NCBI RefSeq assembly: GCF_000265425.1
Contig: NC_018014.1
Span: 4,402,001-4,466,000 of the forward strand
DNA length: 64,000 nucleotides
Origin: Terriglobus roseus DSM 18391
Lineage (GTDB): Bacteria > Acidobacteriota > Terriglobia > Terriglobales > Acidobacteriaceae
Direction: 5' to 3'
The position numbers and the translations under genes were made by a program. A model generated the notes under the pieces. That model was not told the origin of the DNA, made no database searches, and saw nothing but the letters and a program-made list of their open reading frames with translations. Every line of letters begins with the position of its first letter. Position 1 is the first letter of the stretch. Below are positions 15,640-63,411 of this stretch, piece after piece.

Positions 15640-16146
15640 TTACAGTTCCGAAATGTCCTTGCCACGCAGAGCGGCAACCTGAGCCTTGTCGCGCAGCTGA
15701 ATCAGTGCGTCGAACGTAGCCTTGATCACGTTGTGCGGATTTGCGGTGCCGAGCGACTTCGTCAGCACGTTCTGCACGCCTGCCGAGGTCATGACTGCAC
15801 GAACCGCGCCGCCGGCGATGACTCCGGTACCTTCCGGTGCCGGCTTCAGCAAAACCTGGCCCGAGCCGTAACGGCCCAGAACGAGGTGGGGGATGGAAGT
15901 CTCTGTGAGGTTGATCTTGTACAGATTCTTCTTCGCCGCTTCAATGCCCTTGCGGATTGCCTGGGGCACTTCCTTCGCCTTGCCGCTGCCGTAGCCAACA
16001 ATGCCCATGTCCGAATCGCCAATCACAACCAGCGCTGCGAACGACATATTCTTACCGCCCTTAACGACCTTGGTCACGCGGTTGATCGCGACGACCTGGT
16101 CCTTCAGGTTCAGCTTGCCTGCATCAATCTTCTTGCGAATCGCCAT
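15640..16146 (-). CDS. rpsE: 30S ribosomal protein S5
   Basis: Small-subunit protein important for decoding accuracy and mRNA unwinding. 168 residues with the S5 N-terminal RNA-binding domain ([28 protein letters not shown], in parts) and the C-terminal domain ([32 protein letters not shown], in parts). 53 bp before rpmD. Confidence 0.99.
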
Positions 16147-16206
16147 GTAAATCCTCTTGGGGAACTCTGTCCCTGTCTCAACTGTTTCTCGAACCGTCAG
16201 GCTCTC

Positions 16207-16572
16207 TTAGAACTCGAGTCCACCTTCACGAGCAGCATCGGCCAGAGCCTTGATGCGGCCGTGATACAGGTAGCCACCGCGGTCAAATACGACACGGGTA
16301 ACGCCCTTATCCTTGGCGCGCTCGGCGATCAGCTTACCTACCGAAGCGGCTGCTTCGATGTTGCCGCCAGACTTCTTGTCCTCACCCTTCTTGGTGACGG
16401 TAGAAGCCGAAGCCAGCGTCGTTGCCGAAGCATCGTCGATGAGCTGCGCGTAGATGTGGTTGAGCGAACGGAAGACGTTGAGGCGCGGACGCTCTGCGGT
16501 GCCCGATACCTTGGCGCGGACACGCGCGTGAACCCGCTTGCGGATTACATTGCGCTGAGGTGCTGTGATCAT
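16207..16572 (-). CDS. rplR: 50S ribosomal protein L18
   Basis: 5S rRNA-binding protein of 121 residues. Conserved [24 protein letters not shown] and the C-terminal [27 protein letters not shown] (in parts) identify it. The 213-bp spacer to rplF carries a copy of the covarying triple-hairpin element. Confidence 0.99.
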
Positions 16573-16698
16573 GGTCTTTTTCCTTCCCTATCGGCGCAGC
16601 CACCCAGTGGCCGCGTTCGGTTCGGTGAGCGATGGCATCTTGTCCATCGCCTCGGTGTTGTGCAACTGCGACTTCTGCAGAGTGCTTTGAGTTTTGAA

Positions 16699-16788
16699 CC
16701 GGCTCGCCCGAAGCGAGCCGGCCCATCCATTCCATTGCGGTACGCGCACACCGCGAATAGCGGCAGCGAGAACCGCGCGAAGTGCTTA
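16699..16788 (-). repeat. Covarying triple-hairpin element, copy 1 (after rplF)
   Basis: Starts with the rplF stop codon and runs downstream on the minus strand: a small stem (GCAC/GCGC type, one G-U pair), then CCGC/GCGG (16751-16763), then CCGGCTCGC/GCGAGCCGG with loop CCGAA on the plus strand (16699-16721). About 80 percent identical by eye to the copy after rpsH. Stem changes between copies are compensatory, which argues for selection on RNA structure. Confidence 0.7.
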
Positions 16789-17325
16789 CTTCGAGCCGGT
16801 CTTACCGACCTTCTTCTTCAGCTTCTCGTCCGAGTAGCGAACGCCCTTGTTCTTATACGGATCGGGCTTACGCAGCGAACGCATATCGGCAGCAACCTGG
16901 CCGACCTTCTGGCGATCGATGCCCTCGACCGTGACGTGGGTCTGCTTCGGATCGATGGTGACGGTGATGCCGGTGGGCAGCGGGAACTCGATGGGGTGGG
17001 AGTAGCCGAGGGTGAACACGACCATATCCTTACCCTTCAACTCAGCACGATAACCAATGCCGACGATGTCGAGATCCTTCTTCCAGCCGTTGGTCACGCC
17101 CTCAACGGCGTTGAAGACCAGGGCGCGAGCCAGGCCGTGAACAGCCTTCTGCGAATCGTTGTCGCGAACCGCGTGCAGGAAGCCGTCCTTCTGCTCCAGA
17201 CGGATACCCGTCGGCAGCAGAGCGTTCGTCTGACCCTTGGGTCCGGTTACTTCTACGATGTTGCCGTTCACCGTGTACTTCACGGTGGAGGCCATCGGAA
17301 TCGGCTTCAAACCAATACGTGACAT
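16786..17325 (-). CDS. rplF: 50S ribosomal protein L6
   Basis: Large-subunit protein near the sarcin-ricin loop and factor-binding site. 179 residues made of two repeated domains; the C-terminal signature [23 protein letters not shown] (in parts) is clear. Spacers on both sides exceed 200 bp and both carry the same structured element. Confidence 0.99.
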
Positions 17326-17466
17326 GTGTTTCTATCCTTGCGGCTTGCGAGTCCCGGAGAAAGCTTCTAGCTCTTAGCCACTAGCTGTTAGCCAACTCGT
17401 TCCACTGCAGCCAGTGCGACAATTGCCGCACTTACAACTCAAACTTGATACTTGCGAAAGTCGGAT

Positions 17467-17556
17467 CCGGATCGCCCGAAGCGATCCGGCCCATGCATTT
17501 CATCCCGGTAGTCTCACGCCGCGAAGAGCGGCGTCGAGAACCGCACGAAGTGCCTA
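17467..17556 (-). repeat. Covarying triple-hairpin element, copy 2 (after rpsH)
   Basis: Begins at the rpsH stop codon (17554-17556). Hairpins: GCAC-GAA-GTGC (17543-17553), ACGCCGC-GAAGA-GCGGCGT (17516-17534) and CCGGATCGC-CCGAA-GCGATCCGG (17467-17489), given on the plus strand. The third stem differs from copy 1 by a paired change (C/G to A/T), and the second differs from the copy after tuf by a paired change (C/G to T/A). Confidence 0.75.
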
Positions 17557-17952
17557 CCAGACGTGTGCGAGGACTTCGCCGCCAACGTTTTCCTTGCGAG
17601 CGGTGCGGCCGGTCATGACGCCCTTGGGGGTGGTCAGGATCGAGATGCCGAGGCCACCCTGCACGCGACGGATTTCGTCGCGGCCGATGTACACACGCGA
17701 GCCAGGCTTGGAGATACGCTTCAGGTCCAGGATTGCAGACTCACCCTCGGCGCTGTACTTCAGATACACACGCAGAATACGGTGGCCGTCTTCTTCCAGC
17801 GCCTTGTAGTTTGCGACGTAGCCCTCTTCCTTCAGGATGCGGGCAATCTCAATCTTCAGGTTGGAAGCGGGCACGTCCATCTTCTGGTGGCGCGAACGCA
17901 TAGCGTTACGGATGCGGGTCAGGAAGTCTGCTACGGGATCGGTCAGGTTCAT
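17554..17952 (-). CDS. rpsH: 30S ribosomal protein S8
   Basis: 16S rRNA-binding assembly protein, 132 residues. DPVADFLTRIRNAMRSRHQ at the N-terminus and the C-terminal GLGISILTTPKGVMTGRTARKENVGGEVLAHVW (in parts) are diagnostic. In E. coli S8 represses the spc operon at the L5 start; such a site was not identified here. Confidence 0.99.
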   Translation of the reverse strand: MNLTDPVADFLTRIRNAMRSRHQKMDVPASNLKIEIARILKEEGYVANYKALEEDGHRILRVYLKYSAEGESAILDLKRISKPGSRVYIGRDEIRRVQGGLGISILTTPKGVMTGRTARKENVGGEVLAHVW

Positions 17953-18092
17953 GGGTCTTCTCTTCTACCTCTCGTTTGCTGCGGGCGACATACGCCGGCA
18001 GAACCTGCAGAGGATTTCGTTGTGCTACTTGGTGAGTTCCGGACCGGCCCACGGCGAGGTGAGCCAGCCCGAACTGTTTCCCTGGGTAGTGC

Positions 18093-18278
18093 TTACCAGG
18101 AGGACTTGACGACGCCTGGAATCTCGCCCTTGAGTGCAAGGCTGCGGAAGCACAGACGGCAGATGCCGAACTTGCGGAGGAATGCGCGGGGACGGCCGCA
18201 GAGCTGGCAGCGGTTATGCTGGCGGCACTTGAACTTGGGCTTCTTCGCGTCTTTTACGGCTTTGGCGGTGGTCGACAT
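18093..18278 (-). CDS. rpsN: 30S ribosomal protein S14, zinc-binding short type
   Basis: 61 residues, the short S14 form. Zinc ligands Cys24, Cys27, Cys40 and Cys43 (CQLC and CRLC) are all present, followed by [18 protein letters not shown]. Lies between rplE and rpsH, as in organisms with the zinc form. Confidence 0.98.
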
Positions 18279-39659: not shown

Positions 39660-39705
39660 TTATTGCTTCTGAGTCCCGCCTAAGCCTTCATTTCCGTCCT
39701 TGAAC

Positions 39706-39745
39706 ACGTCGCGCGAGCGACGTCGAGAACGGCACGAAGTGCCTA
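39706..39745 (-). repeat. Covarying hairpin element, copy 3 (after tuf)
   Basis: Begins with the tuf stop (39743-39745). GGCAC-GAA-GTGCC (39731-39743) and ACGTCGC-GCGA-GCGACGT (39706-39723) correspond to the first two hairpins of the copies after rpsH and rplF; the third hairpin is missing. The second stem has a paired substitution relative to copy 2. Confidence 0.65.
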
Positions 39746-40930
39746 CTTGATGATCTCGGAGATGGTGCCAGCGCCGACGGTACGACCGCCTTCGCGGATG
39801 GCGAAGCGGAGGCCCTTTTCCATGGCGACGGGCGTGTGCAGCGTGATCTCCAGAGCGATGTTGTCGCCCGGCATCACCATCTCCGTGCCAGCCGGCAGCT
39901 TCGCCGATCCGGTCACGTCAGTGGTGCGGAAGTAGAACTGGGGACGGTAGCCGTCGAAGAACGGGGTGTGACGGCCGCCCTCTTCCTTGCTCAGGACGTA
40001 GATCTCGCCCTTGAAGGTGGTGTGCGGCGTGATCGAACCCGGCTTGGCAAGAACCATGCCGCGCTCAACGTCGTCCTTGGCGGTACCGCGGAGCAACAGA
40101 CCCGCGTTATCACCAGCAAGACCCTCGTCCAGCTGCTTCTTGAACATCTCCACGCCGGTAACGGTCGTGTTCTGCGTGTCGCGGAAGCCAACGATCTGTG
40201 CCGGCTCGCCGACCTTGATCTTGCCACGCTCGATACGGCCGGTAACAACCGTGCCACGACCCGAGATCGAGAAGATATCTTCGATCGGCATCAGGAACGG
40301 CAGGTCGACCAGGCGGTCAGGCTGCGGAACGTTCTTGTCGACAGCGTCCATCAGCTCGTCGATCTTCGCTTCCCACTGGGCTTCGCCGTTCAGTGCGCCA
40401 AGCGCCGAACCACGGATGACGGGAACGTCATCGCCAGGGAAGTCGTACTTGCTGAGCAGCTCGCGAACTTCCATCTCGACCAGGTCGATCAGTTCTTCGT
40501 CTTCAACCGCATCGCACTTGTTCAGGAACACAACGATGTACGGCACGCCAACCTGGCGAGCGAGCAGAACGTGCTCCTTCGTCTGGGGCATCGGGCCGTC
40601 GGTGGCCGCCACTACGAGAATGGCACCGTCCATCTGCGCTGCGCCCGTGATCATGTTCTTGATGTAATCGGCGTGGCCCGGGCAGTCAACGTGAGCATAG
40701 TGACGGTTCGCCGTCTCATACTCAACGTGCGACGTCGCGATCGTAATACCGCGCTCGCGCTCTTCCGGTGCGTTGTCAATCGTGTCGAACGAACGGAAAG
40801 AGTTCTTCGGGTTGTGCTTGGAAAGAACCTTCGTGATCGCAGCCGTCAGCGTCGTCTTGCCGTGATCGATGTGACCAATCGTGCCCACGTTAACGTGCGG
40901 CTTGGACCGGTCGAACTTTTCCTTACCCAT
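39743..40930 (-). CDS. tuf: Elongation factor Tu
   Basis: GTPase that brings aminoacyl-tRNA to the ribosome, 395 residues. G1 GHIDHGKT at 19-26, G3 DCPGHADY, G4 NKCD, and the C-terminal domains KPGSITPHT and [15 protein letters not shown]. Last gene of the str operon; no second copy in the window. Confidence 0.99.
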
Positions 40931-58131: not shown

Positions 58132-58158
58132 TCCACTTCCCACACGCACCCACCAGGC

Positions 58159-58190
58159 GGGTGCCCCATGTCTCGCTTCTGAGACATGGG
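58159..58190 (+). repeat. GGGTGCCCCA hairpin element (REP-like)
   Basis: GGGTG head, 10-bp stem CCCATGTCTC/GAGACATGGG and GCTTCT loop. One paired change (T-A instead of C-G) from the copies at 59336 and 61685. Confidence 0.8.
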
Positions 58191-58220
58191 TTCAAACCCA
58201 TCCCATCCGCAAAGACAAAA

Positions 58221-58708: not shown

Positions 58709-59730
58709 TAATTTCCACCTTCCACTGCACGGTCCACATCAGCCTGCGCCGCACGACCAGCAGCCACGCCGCTGCCCTCATGCTCACCTGCAGCCACATG
58801 CCCGATCTTGCGTGCAATCGATACCATCTCGATCGCCGCCACCGCTGCCTCAAACCCCTTATTGCCGGCCTTCACACCCGCACGATTCAGCGCCTGCTCC
58901 AGCGTCTCGCACGTCAGCACGCCAAACGCATGCGGCACGCCCGTCTCCTGCTGGCTCTGCCCAATCCCGCGCGCCGCCTCGTTATAGATCGCCTCATAGT
59001 GCGCCGTCTCACCGCGCAGCAGGCAGCCCAGGGTGATGATCGCGTCATACTTCCGCTTGCCATCCGTATCCCGCAGATCCGCCATCATCCGCGCCGCCGC
59101 AGGAACCTCCCACGCACCCGGCACCCGCACAATGTCGATATCCTCGCGGCGCCCACCACTGCGCAAAATCCCATCCAGCGAACCCTGCAGCAGACGATCC
59201 GTGATCACGGCATTCCAGCGAGCCGTCACAATTCCAAACCGCATCCCAGCCGCGCTCAGATCACCCTCAACGGCAATCGGCACACCCGCCAGCACATCCT
59301 CGCGCTCCCAGAACCCAAATACCAGCCCAGGAAGCGGGTGCCCCACGTCTCGCTTCTGAGACGTGGGATCGACTACTGAGGACGTCGAGGGATTCGCGTC
59401 ACTCAAATCCACCGTAAACATCCGAGACTTCCAATGCGTCTCCACCACATCCGAAAGCCGCGAGCCAAGTTCCTCAGCAGCCAGCCAACGCTTCACAACA
59501 CCATGCACGATCTCGATCTGCGTGCACTCCACCAGCAACTCCGGCACAGCCGGCGGACGGCCCGTAACAAACTCCACATTGCCCAAAGGCGCCAGAAACG
59601 CCGAGCCCTTACCCGCACCATCATCCCAGCCACGGCCCGGCTCAAACCCAAGCTCACCAAACAGCGACGAAAGCCGCTCCCAGGCCGCCGCCGAACCCAC
59701 CGGCTTCACCACTGTCAAACCCTTGATCAT
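58708..59730 (-). CDS. ribH: Lumazine synthase (RibH) fused to an N-terminal VOC-like domain
   Basis: 340 residues, far longer than the usual 155 of RibH. Residues about 161-305 are 6,7-dimethyl-8-ribityllumazine synthase, the penultimate riboflavin step: FGIVTARWNAVITDRLLQG, VRVPGAWEVP, ITLGCLLRGETAHYEAI and GVKAGNKGFEAA. Residues 1-145 resemble a glyoxalase/VOC domain (FGELGFEPGRGW...AFLAPLGNVEFVTG, ending GLVFGFWER). Residues 122-132 (TSQKRDVGHP region) are encoded by a REP-like hairpin inserted in frame between the last strands of that domain. ATG 59730 follows TACAAT closely and may be leaderless. Coupled to nusB. Confidence 0.85.
   Translation of the reverse strand: MIKGLTVVKPVGSAAAWERLSSLFGELGFEPGRGWDDGAGKGSAFLAPLGNVEFVTGRPPAVPELLVECTQIEIVHGVVKRWLAAEELGSRLSDVVETHWKSRMFTVDLSDANPSTSSVVDPTSQKRDVGHPLPGLVFGFWEREDVLAGVPIAVEGDLSAAGMRFGIVTARWNAVITDRLLQGSLDGILRSGGRREDIDIVRVPGAWEVPAAARMMADLRDTDGKRKYDAIITLGCLLRGETAHYEAIYNEAARGIGQSQQETGVPHAFGVLTCETLEQALNRAGVKAGNKGFEAAVAAIEMVSIARKIGHVAAGEHEGSGVAAGRAAQADVDRAVEGGN
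59336..59367 (+). repeat. GGGTGCCCCA hairpin element inside the VOC-RibH gene
   Basis: GGGTG head, stem CCCACGTCTC/GAGACGTGGG, loop GCTTCT. Identical in sequence to the copy next to the transposase (61685-61716). It is read in frame by the minus-strand gene as roughly PTSQKRDVGHP without any stop. Confidence 0.85.
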
Positions 59731-60745: not shown

Positions 60746-60766
60746 ACAGCTCCAAACAACCAAAGC

Positions 60767-60799
60767 GGGTGGCCCCACGTCTCGCTTCTGAGACGTGGG
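60767..60799 (+). repeat. GGGTGCCCCA-type hairpin element
   Basis: GGGTGG head (one extra G) and stem CCCACGTCTC/GAGACGTGGG with loop GCTTCT, 22 bp after the thioredoxin-like gene. Confidence 0.75.
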
Positions 60800-60843
60800 T
60801 TCGCAGGACAGTTACGGCCGACAAGATACTTAGGCACAAGCGG

Positions 60844-61587: not shown

Positions 61588-61684
61588 GGGATCAACTTAC
61601 ACCGAGTGAGTTCCAGAATGGACATATCGCTGCTCAGCAGGCTGAGGGCCCGCGCTATTACAGCCCGGGCTTGATATCGTGGCC

Positions 61685-61716
61685 GGGTGCCCCACGTCTC
61701 GCTTCTGAGACGTGGG
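61685..61716 (+). repeat. GGGTGCCCCA hairpin element adjacent to the transposase
   Basis: GGGTG head, 10-bp stem CCCACGTCTC/GAGACGTGGG, loop GCTTCT. It ends one base before the stop codon of the RAYT gene. A degenerate copy (CATCTC...GAGACGT, about 62322-62345) lies on the other side. Confidence 0.8.
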
Positions 61717-61717
61717 T

Positions 61718-62242
61718 TTATAGGATGCCAGCCCTCGGATCAATCCGCATCGGCAACCCACCCCGCTTCCGAGCCGTCCATGGCGACTCCACCTCCACCG
61801 GTCCTTCGACACCGGTACTCCAGTGTCGAAAGCTCGACCAGTCCCATAACTCCGGCGACGTCACCAGCCCGCGAGTAACCGGGTTGCGATGTATGTAGCG
61901 TCGCTTCTCAATGATTTTTCTCTCCGAGAAGACGTTGAAGTCGTAGTATCGCTTCTGCCAGAACGGGCGCTGCGCATTCTTCACCGCCACGGATATTTTC
62001 AGGGCCTGCAAAGCCTTCGCGAGCGGCACTCCCAGTGGCTCTGTGAGCAGCAGATGGACATGCTCAGGCATGACGACGTAAGACATTACAAAGAATCCAT
62101 ACCGTGCACGCATGACTTCCAGAGACTGCACGAAGATATCGCGCGAGGCCGCCGCCCGAAGATAGGCCTTTCGTTCAAAGCAGGAGAAGGTGACAAAATG
62201 CATGTCCCCTTCCTGCTGGTATCGAGCGAGACCCTTCGGCAT
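61718..62242 (-). CDS. REP-associated tyrosine transposase (RAYT, Y1/HUH type)
   Basis: 174 residues, single-domain Y1 transposase. HFVTFSCFERKAYL near the start, the HUH motif HVH at residues 61-63 in MPEHVHLLLTEP, and the helix with the candidate nucleophile Tyr116 in RRYIHRNPV; SPELWDWSSFRHW follows. RAYTs are linked to REP/BIME repeats, which they bind and cut as single strands. Here the nearest repeat ends right at the stop and at least six more copies lie within 8 kb. It looks intact. Confidence 0.9.
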   Translation of the reverse strand: MPKGLARYQQEGDMHFVTFSCFERKAYLRAAASRDIFVQSLEVMRARYGFFVMSYVVMPEHVHLLLTEPLGVPLAKALQALKISVAVKNAQRPFWQKRYYDFNVFSERKIIEKRRYIHRNPVTRGLVTSPELWDWSSFRHWSTGVEGPVEVESPWTARKRGGLPMRIDPRAGIL

Positions 62243-62360
62243 GTCGGCATCGTACTGGGGTCGATCAGAAATGTGTCACGAGTAATTCAGGACTCGCTCG
62301 CCTGCGTCCCGAATCCGAACCACCATCTCACTTCCGAGACGTCGCTTTGCAGGATGCAGA

Positions 62361-62565
62361 CCCATTCGCGCAAAGCGCGAACCAAAGGGAGCAGTGGCCT
62401 TCAGGCCACTAGAATCTGGCCCTATCGCAAAGGGCTTTAGCCCTGGACCCGTCGCATAAAAATCAAGCAACGAGGCGCACTGAAGGTGCGCGACTTCCCA
62501 GCCCAGGGCAAAGCCCTGGGTTTCCGTAGAAAGCGGCAGTGCGGGCTGTATAGGCCCGCGACAAG
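62361..62565. repeat. Ordered palindromic module cluster
   Basis: TTCGCGC-AAA-GCGCGAA, AGTGGCC-TTCA-GGCCACT, GGGCT-TT-AGCCC, GCGCAC-TGAAG-GTGCGC, CCCAGGGC-AAA-GCCCTGGG and GCGGGC/GCCCGC follow one another. The same order recurs at 62814-63020. Confidence 0.75.
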
Positions 62566-62674
62566 ATCCCGCCATCCACACACCTGCTTCCCCGAAGCCG
62601 AGATCGCAAACGCACCACCCGCCCCGAATCCATCTTCCCCCGCCTCAGGCAGTCGAAGAATGGATGGGATAGTG

Positions 62675-62768
62675 CGCAGCGGGCTGAAAGCCCGCGCTAT
62701 CCTAGCCCAGGGCGAAGCCCTGGGTCAGCGTCCACCACAAAATTGCGGGCTGTAGGCCCGCGCTAAAC
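62675..62768. repeat. Partial palindromic module cluster
   Basis: GCGGGCT-GAA-AGCCCGC, CCCAGGGC-GAA-GCCCTGGG and GCGGGC-TGTA-GGCCCGC; the first modules of the full series are missing. Confidence 0.7.
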
Positions 62769-62813
62769 CCAACCGCCACACCGCATCACAAGCAGGGTCA
62801 CAAACACTCCAAC

Positions 62814-63020
62814 CCATTCGCGCAAAGCGCGAACCGGAGCGAGCAGTGGCCTTCAGGCCACTGGATCCCGTCCCATCGCAACAGGGGCTTCAGCCCCGGA
62901 CCCGTCGCATAAAAGTCAACCAACCAGGCGCACTGAAGGTGCGCGACTTCCCAGCCCAGGGCAAAGCCCTGGGTCAAATTCAGGAAGAGGAACTGCGGGC
63001 TGTAGGCCCGCGACAAAAAC
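62814..63020. repeat. Ordered palindromic module cluster, second full copy
   Basis: Modules as at 62361-62565, about 453 bases further on, with scattered differences in the spacers. A third broken set follows at 63060-63115. The whole 62243-63260 stretch has no gene. Confidence 0.75.
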
Positions 63021-63268
63021 CCTCCGGCCACACCCGTGTTCCACAAACAGCCGAAGGTCTCGCGCAAAGGCCACTGCATCCCGCCCCATCGCAACAGGGG
63101 CTTCGCCCGCGAAAGCCGCCTCCCATCAACGCCAATCGACCTGTCAAGCCCCCGCACGTCTCCGAATCGCCCTAACTCTCAGCAAGAAAGCCACTTACAA
63201 CCCAAACTTTGTTGGCGGTCTATTTCCACCAATTCCCTAAAATAGAAATAGACCCAGAAAGAAACAAA

Positions 63269-63295
63269 AGCGCGCCGCAAACATCGCGGCGCGCT
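63269..63295 (-). terminator. Terminator of the S53 peptidase gene
   Basis: 10-bp stem AGCGCGCCGC/GCGGCGCGCT, loop of 7, followed on the minus strand by TTTGTTTCTTT. It lies about 115 bp after the stop, beyond three direct repeats. Confidence 0.85.
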
Positions 63296-63390
63296 AAGTC
63301 GTTTGTTATCTAATTTTTACCCGTAACTCGTTTGGAATCTAATTTTTGCCGTTTCGGGAATCGTCAACTCCTTTGTTTTCTGATTTTTAC
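63296..63390. repeat. Three 25-bp AT-rich direct repeats
   Basis: 63296-63320, 63325-63349 and 63366-63390 share the pattern AASTCSTTTG, three variable bases, TCTRATTTTTRC. Spacers are 4 and 16 bp. They sit between the S53 stop and its terminator and are followed on the plus strand by AGGGGGAGGGGGG. Confidence 0.75.
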
Positions 63391-63411
63391 GAAAACTAGG
63401 GGGAGGGGGGT

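Follow-up and report, generated by a model that had tools for sequence, protein, structure and literature searches.

A dispersed twin-hairpin element adjoining stop codons in Terriglobus and its relatives

Structured spacers in Terriglobus roseus

An element of about 38 nt adjoins the stop codons of rpsH, rplF and tuf on the minus strand of the window, the 64,000-nt stretch of the Terriglobus roseus DSM 18391 genome analysed here (contig NC_018014.1, positions 4,402,001 to 4,466,000). The original prediction had placed a structured sequence directly after these stop codons, and it was found in all three spacers (Table 1). The element consists of a first hairpin (hairpin 1, GNNC-UUC-GNNC), a linker N-GUUCUCGA, and a second hairpin (hairpin 2); the linker comprises eight bases and reads N-GUUCUCG(A) in the window copies. 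In the rpsH copy, hairpin 1 is GCAC-UUC-GUGC, the linker G-GUUCUCG, and hairpin 2 ACGCCGC-UCUUC-GCGGCGU. The tuf copy matches over 43 nt (E 6.7e-8).

Table 1. Features of the window discussed in the text; positions are counted from the first nucleotide of the window.
Feature	Position	Strand	Evidence
Twin-hairpin element after the rpsH TAG stop	17515..17553	-	Sequence; covariance model 43.3 bits (L097); 42-nt fold
Twin-hairpin element after the rplF TAA stop, partly decayed	16747..16785	-	Sequence; 83% identity between rplF and rpsH spacers over 94 nt (E 9.5e-22); fold
Twin-hairpin element after the TAG stop of one of two tuf genes	39705..39742	-	Sequence; covariance model 42.1 bits (L114); fold
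Third hairpin, rpsH-rplF spacer, separate feature	17467..17489	-	Sequence; by-eye comparison with other genomes
Third hairpin, rplF-rplR spacer, resembling that of the rpsH-rplF spacer	16699..16721	-	Sequence; repeat family D6
rpsH (S8), host gene	17554..17952	-	Pfam PF00410
rplF (L6), host gene	16786..17325	-	Pfam PF00347
tuf (EF-Tu), host gene	39743..40930	-	Pfam PF00009, PF03144, PF03143

None of 200 shuffles folded better than the native 90-nt spacers of rpsH (z -5.42) and rplF (z -3.07); in both, hairpin 1 is absent from the minimum-energy structure and longer pairing takes its place. Folded as 42-nt segments, the rpsH (z -2.06) and tuf (z -1.76) copies form the motif. The rplF copy is partly decayed: its hairpin 1 carries an A-C mismatch, its 42-nt segment (z -0.65) gives no motif fold, and the covariance model described below missed it at E<=0.01. 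A triple hairpin, as originally described, is present behind rplF and rpsH, whereas the tuf copy has two hairpins only. We treat the third hairpin as a separate feature because tuf lacks it and because hairpins in a similar place stand behind rpsH where the twin-hairpin element is missing, as in genomes G002, G009, and G012 (by eye). Among 4227 Rfam families, none matched the element in the window at its gathering score, and the 951-base rplF/rpsH stretch gave nothing with E below 0.1 (best E 0.45).

Copies in other genomes

The element is a dispersed family, wider than the three spacers, and occurs in certain soil Acidobacteria and in part of the viral DNA. The original prediction depended on further instances in related genomes, and many were recovered with a covariance model built from 13 copies. 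Stretches around the matches were fetched and 160 distinct copies extracted, 135 of them from four genomes (G000, G003, G008, and G013); the search scored at most 150 candidates per genome, so that copy numbers from the model are rough and the total is to be read as at least 160. Setting aside 20 copies in a composite repeat and nine tandem second units left 131 copies for positional analysis.

In the genome of T. roseus itself, the 18-base core matched exactly at 13 places and with one mismatch at three more. Ten of these 16 begin between -7 and +1 relative to a stop codon, two are tandem second units, and four are away from stops. With at most one mismatch, the core occurred in 7 of 61 sampled genomes (T. 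roseus included), all within the window's genus, which contributed 19 genomes to the sample. Exact matches to the common stem types numbered 12 in T. roseus and 30, 29, 25, 6, 2, and 2 in the six others. Across the family, 26 of 398 genomes contained an exact match, four of which look coding. Matches that were probably coding or lacked a good second hairpin were set aside, both on genome contigs (L247, L249, and L250; likewise genomes G365, G376, G397, and G413) and on viral contigs (L262, L263, L264, and L266, with L263 and L264 matching the model weakly at E 8e-4 and 0.02). The collection scans may omit the window genome or its near kin. An uncultured Terriglobus record (L255) has flanking sequence as in G014 of the window's genus, and Granulicella genomes assembled from bog and palsa metagenomes carry copies, some in tandem with units of 22 or 29 nt. 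In another genus (g50), the pattern matched in 15 of 49 genomes, with 90 exact matches in one (G407) and one to three in each of the other 14; the remaining 34 had no exact pattern match, rpoC ends having been read only in matching genomes.

Individual sites are occupied unevenly. The covariance model found the rpsH site occupied in 6 of 17 genomes. A search for tuf at E<=1e-150 gave 19 copies from 11 of 19 genomes, one without a readable flank, and the element follows two of the 18 readable copies; the second tuf gene of T. roseus lacks it. The hairpins behind rpsH in other genomes, with the linker CGGCGGGA, were considered as a further multicopy family and rejected, their counts being mostly near control, with the exception of G006 (34 vs. 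18).

Location relative to stop codons

Seventy of the 131 copies start at -1 to +1 of the stop codon of an open reading frame of at least 60 amino acids (9 at -1, 41 at 0, and 20 at +1), where the random expectation in noncoding DNA is 0.4–0.5%, as estimated from 400-kb samples of two genomes with a simple custom gene caller; with orthologs numerous among the copies, the counts do not represent independent events. The wider interval of -9 to +1 holds 80 copies, ten of them at -9 to -3. A further 17 touch a stop triplet without a reading frame of that length, and 34 have no adjoining stop. A general excess of hairpins at stops was also sought in these genomes and none was found: 4-bp hairpins occurred at background level in 258, 269, and 276 genes of three genomes.

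The 97 stop-associated copies follow TAG in 70 cases, TAA in 21, and TGA in six. The preference for TAG exceeds that of the genomes themselves, with 20 of 25 occupied stops in G003 vs. 58 of 258 genes (P 1.4e-8), and 14 of 16 in G000 vs. 112 of 269 (P 3.2e-4). A further possibility is that the element is translated, as a short readthrough tail or peptide; in the common type at offset 0, the frame is open for about 11 codons past the stop (by eye). That frame is not kept across the offsets -1, 0, and +1, however, and stem variation follows base pairing, not codons, which makes a coding role scarcely credible.

Compensated stems

Pairing was counted in 38 of the 39 distinct copies of 35 nt, other lengths being excluded. 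Of 380 cells, 96.6% were paired, and seven of the ten base pairs showed two-sided changes. The covariation score (0.394 vs. 0.179 in shuffles) was reached by none of 500 shuffles, although these ignore relatedness, and related sequences can beat such shuffles without structure; the score was lost when partners were slid by one to three columns. Three types of hairpin 1 predominate among the 131 copies: GCAC/GUGC (47), GUAC/GUAC (36), and GUGC/GCAC (16). The linker is nearly fixed, with GTTCTCGA exact in 110 of 153 copies counted.

The two paired substitutions on which the original prediction drew amount to one base pair each and are weak alone; the wider copy set supports them. Two-sided changes occupy 51 cells, and one-sided changes, of the kind that would have counted against the prediction, occupy six. 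Its description of the substitutions as direct evidence for selection on RNA structure was nonetheless too strong. The stems do covary, but one-sided intermediates are few, and discrete, fully paired types are also obtainable by copy replacement or palindrome correction. With intermediates this rare, some of the pattern may stem from these two processes, and covariation by itself is not proof that the RNA is under selection.

In 48 orthologous pairs, mean identity was 0.85 in the element vs. 0.62 in the next 50 nt. Copies paired at random already share 0.76 identity, however, and in about nine orthologous pairs, frr included, the element is no more similar than its flank; the higher identity at shared sites is thus partly family likeness. 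The frr flanks of G005 and G000 share 0.88 identity, yet hairpin 1 reads GTGC/GCAC in the former and CCAC/GTGG in the latter. Between these two genomes, the flanks of frr, rpsH, and an R3H gene are alike as much as the element or more, and the element differs by whole stem types.

Genes and viruses carrying the element

Sixty-seven entries with distinct C-termini, orthologs included, carry the element at the stop codon; by reading, six are ribosomal proteins, two are tuf, and two are frr. A Pfam search of 40 of these entries, with known ribosomal proteins and tuf mostly excluded, identified glutamine synthetase, HSP70, ketoacyl synthases, S21, EngA- and HflX-type GTPases, DnaB, DnaA, GyrB, ribosome recycling factor, SRP54, GTP cyclohydrolase I, DNA polymerase III beta, and unrelated enzymes; three of the 40 had no Pfam match at E<=1e-5. 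Gene symbols such as gyrB and ffh are readings of Pfam names.

A shared function in ribosomal mRNAs, the last claim of the original prediction, was not supported. The element is not a ribosomal regulon, as its hosts include many housekeeping genes (dnaA, gyrB, dnaK, frr, SRP54, and glutamine synthetase among them). The idea of a binding site for a ribosomal protein, or for a processing enzyme specific to translation genes, draws on copies behind rpsH, rplF, rpsN, rpsU, tuf, frr, and ribosome-associated GTPase genes in several genomes. It also draws on a pairing of the 3' arm of hairpin 1, over 6–8 nt, with a segment beyond hairpin 2 in the rpsH, rplF, and rpsN spacers (L098, L099, L103, L104, and L106), a possible alternative fold in ribosomal spacers. 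These spacers, in which the pairing is frequent, are not independent, and as a genome-wide property the pairing was rejected: over all copies it does not rise above permutation (0.32 vs. 0.31 in stop-adjacent copies, 0.29 vs. 0.27 in the remainder). With the hosts scanned mostly non-ribosomal, with viral structural and lysis genes also bearing the element, and with the second tuf gene of T. roseus empty, we consider such a regulator very unlikely.

In g50, the element stands behind rpoC in ten genomes, which were selected because the element is present (an L428-like gene, identified by Pfam as the RNA polymerase beta' end); other hosts in this genus are dnaN in G273 and a peptide deformylase gene in G420, with C-termini similar to the G420 host in G188, G205, and G254. 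All 30 rpoC ends read in the window's relatives lack the family described so far (family 1); their stops are TAG in 7 of 30 cases, as against 8 of 10 at the occupied ends. The rpoC copies sit between the stop codon and a terminator-like hairpin (by eye). The element, with its two GC-rich hairpins at the ends of genes and, in some copies, a place ahead of such a hairpin, could itself be a transcription terminator or attenuator. Several observations speak against this role: the window copies have no T run behind them, a scan of 16100–18100 gave one terminator-like site (1.8 expected) that is not at the element, the rpsN, rpsH, and rplF copies lie between closely spaced genes on the same strand, and the terminator-like hairpin after the rpoC copies is separate from the element. 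We rate it as highly improbable.

Viral contigs carry the element as well. Three scans of IMG/VR gave 47 places with a 20-base pattern, repeated contexts included, of which 20 have a stop codon within -12 to +3. Three of the 20 (L398, L409, and L419) look coding with an imperfect stem; the other 17 represent ten distinct contexts in about seven virus lineages, as judged by shared contigs. The clear cases involve structural genes, capsid genes included, and lysis genes: the element follows a head or protease gene in L268, a head-tail joining gene with the portal gene next in L269 (stem register shifted), and endolysin genes at -6 in L261 and at 0 in L265. Neither of two proteins flanking the L260 copy matched a PHROG. 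Some of the element-bearing viral contigs may be proviruses.

Multiplication and mobility

A second sequence family, GCAUUGCAUGC-AGCRG-AYGCG..., follows the same plan; the copy after the tuf gene of G011 was the first to be noticed. Allowing up to two mismatches gave 13 copies, 12 of which have their first nucleotide at -1 or 0 relative to a stop codon; of the 15 matches with three mismatches, none begins so close (within 1 nt) by the reading-frame rule. Two of its copies (L305 and L317) are not independent, as G000 apparently has a duplicated stretch. Four pairs of matches there are separated by 460.5 kb, at about 2.41–2.74 Mb and 2.87–3.20 Mb, which suggests a long duplication in the genome or its assembly and would fit the listed contamination of 9.37%. 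The two families meet at the same genes: behind rpoC, G018 has the second family where ten g50 genomes have family 1, and behind dnaN, family 1 occurs in G016 and family 2 in the genome of L158.

The unit also occurs within larger repeats. In a composite of about 280 nt, three direct repeats of the CTAAAATCGTCTTTCTATTGGGGTTACGG type are followed by TTGACA and the twin-hairpin unit, often with a terminator-like hairpin ahead of TTGACA; it accounts for 20 copies in three genomes of the window's genus, away from stops (e.g., L164, L225, and L233). Similar three-fold repeats (D17) occur at 63295–63391 of the window. In G407, the core pattern was found at 85 places (L453–L502); 28 of 30 distinct copies examined lie in an intergenic composite, in which GCGCCC..GCCGGGCGGGCG precedes the element, and one, at rpoC, lies at a stop codon.

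Matches to Y1_Tnp transposases are present in 17 of 19 genomes of the genus, and 20 stretches were fetched of the 56 listed. Strong copies lie near the transposase in only two of the 20, at 560 nt in L078 and at about 4 kb in L088; in neither do copies stand on both sides of it, and the only G003 stretch has none. Mobilisation by RAYT was rejected on this ground, strong copies standing within 4 kb in just 2 of 20 stretches. The window itself has a Y1 (RAYT-like) transposase match at 61886–62203, beside which dispersed GC-rich repeats with short stems extend over 62360–63032, with an Acido-Lenti-1 RNA match at 62680–62724; no inverted repeat with arms of at least 14 nt within 60 nt was found there. 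A GC-rich palindromic repeat of the GGGTGCCCCACGTCTCGCTTCTGAGACGTGGG type (D5) occurs at 58149–58193, 59326–59370, 60758–60802, and 61675–61719, and a D5-like sequence stands after rpoC in G005.

Could the element be simply a selfish short repeat, of no benefit to the gene that it follows? Such a repeat would insert at or into stop codons, splitting the triplet after TA and rebuilding TAG with its own leading G, and would do little harm there; its stems would be kept paired by the needs of a mobilising enzyme or by template-switch correction of palindromes. The excess of TAG at occupied stops (G003, G000, and rpoC), the patchy copy number among the g50 genomes, the tandem copies, and the scarcity of one-sided intermediates all agree with this account. 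It fits less well with the lack of a linked transposase in the 20 fetched stretches, with the same stop being occupied across several species (rpoC and rpsH), and with two sequence families that share one plan and one type of site; no target-site duplication was seen by eye. We regard it as the chief alternative and a real possibility, if not the most probable one.

Discussion

We infer that the element acts on the mRNA after translation ends, as a dispersed cis-acting RNA element, a reading that we favour and consider evenly poised. A role once translation has ended is favoured by its position and conserved linker, by the occurrence of one family or the other at a given stop, and by the rpoC and rpsH sites that several species share. 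The preference for TAG and the uneven bursts of copies point to a mobile repeat. Functional and mobile readings can both hold. Weighing a function against a purely selfish repeat, we put the former at an even balance and the latter lower.

The two hairpins and their conserved single-stranded linker are locked to the first nucleotide after the stop codon, and the proposed mechanism is as follows. Hairpin 1 (nt 1–11 after the stop) would presumably lie under the terminating ribosome, with hairpin 2 starting near the edge of its footprint. Hairpin 1 would be melted while the ribosome terminates and would reform once the ribosome is recycled. Together, the two hairpins may then hinder scanning and re-initiation and may shield the coding region from 3'-5' exonucleases, and the linker probably binds a predicted trans-acting factor. 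The unit also multiplies, alone, in tandem, or within larger repeats. Against a function stand the 20 of 160 copies that lie in the composite off stops, the 34 of 131 without an adjoining stop, the alternation of presence between relatives, and the loss of hairpin 1 from the 90-nt minimum-energy folds. The rpsH and rplF copies also lie inside gene series, where published ribosome termination structures (RTS) are depleted according to the sections of PMC7518266 consulted.

RTS, as described in those sections (Chemla et al. 2020; PMC7518266), are stable mRNA structures directly past the stop codon, for which control of re-initiation has been proposed; they are defined by folding statistics, share no sequence, and are depleted within operons and enriched at operon ends. 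The element resembles them in its stable structure immediately past the stop, and such a fold was found in the 42-nt rpsH and tuf copies, not in rplF. It differs, so far as that partial view of RTS extends, in forming one sequence family, with a two-hairpin plan and a conserved linker, that is also present in gene series and on viral contigs. The rpsH, rplF, and rpsN copies are inside gene series, and the rpoC copies precede a terminator-like hairpin.

Repetitive extragenic palindromes (REPs) offer a second comparison. Those within 15 nt of a stop codon reportedly stall ribosomes and lower translation (Liang, Rudd, Deutscher 2015, as cited in the part of PMC12306157 consulted). The element is likewise a dispersed palindromic repeat; compared with what that part relates, it differs in lying mostly at -1 to +1, in having two hairpins and a linker, and in stems that vary by compensation. 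GTAG- and CGTC-tagged REPs with RAYT transposases, from the portion of PMC3733652 consulted, are short palindromic repeats, patchy and grouped, and the element shares these traits. Unlike the GTAG REPs of that account, it has GTAG at the hairpin foot in only 15 of 61 copies (offset 0 or +1) and no consistent link to a RAYT gene. Acido-1 and Acido-Lenti-1, Rfam small RNAs of Acidobacteria (PMC2864571, in part), are comparable as small RNAs of this phylum; the element, unlike them, matched no Rfam family in the window. We recognised no description of it in the open-access literature searched, including the parts of PMC11109978 and PMC2864571 checked.

A broader proposal, more speculative and on the unlikely side, is that the element belongs to a class of RNA that inserts itself precisely at stop codons and serves as a portable post-termination module. 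A factor would read the GUUCUCGA linker after the ribosome leaves, which would place termination or mRNA survival under common control for host genes and viruses alike, and unrelated versions of the same plan would swap at the same stop across lineages.

The exact placement of these copies raises the question of how a repeat comes to land within one nucleotide of stop codons. The element also provides a natural system for what structure directly behind a stop codon does, with useful contrasts in its presence or absence at the same stop in relatives, its single and tandem copies, its compensated stems, its near-fixed linker, and its occurrence on viral contigs.
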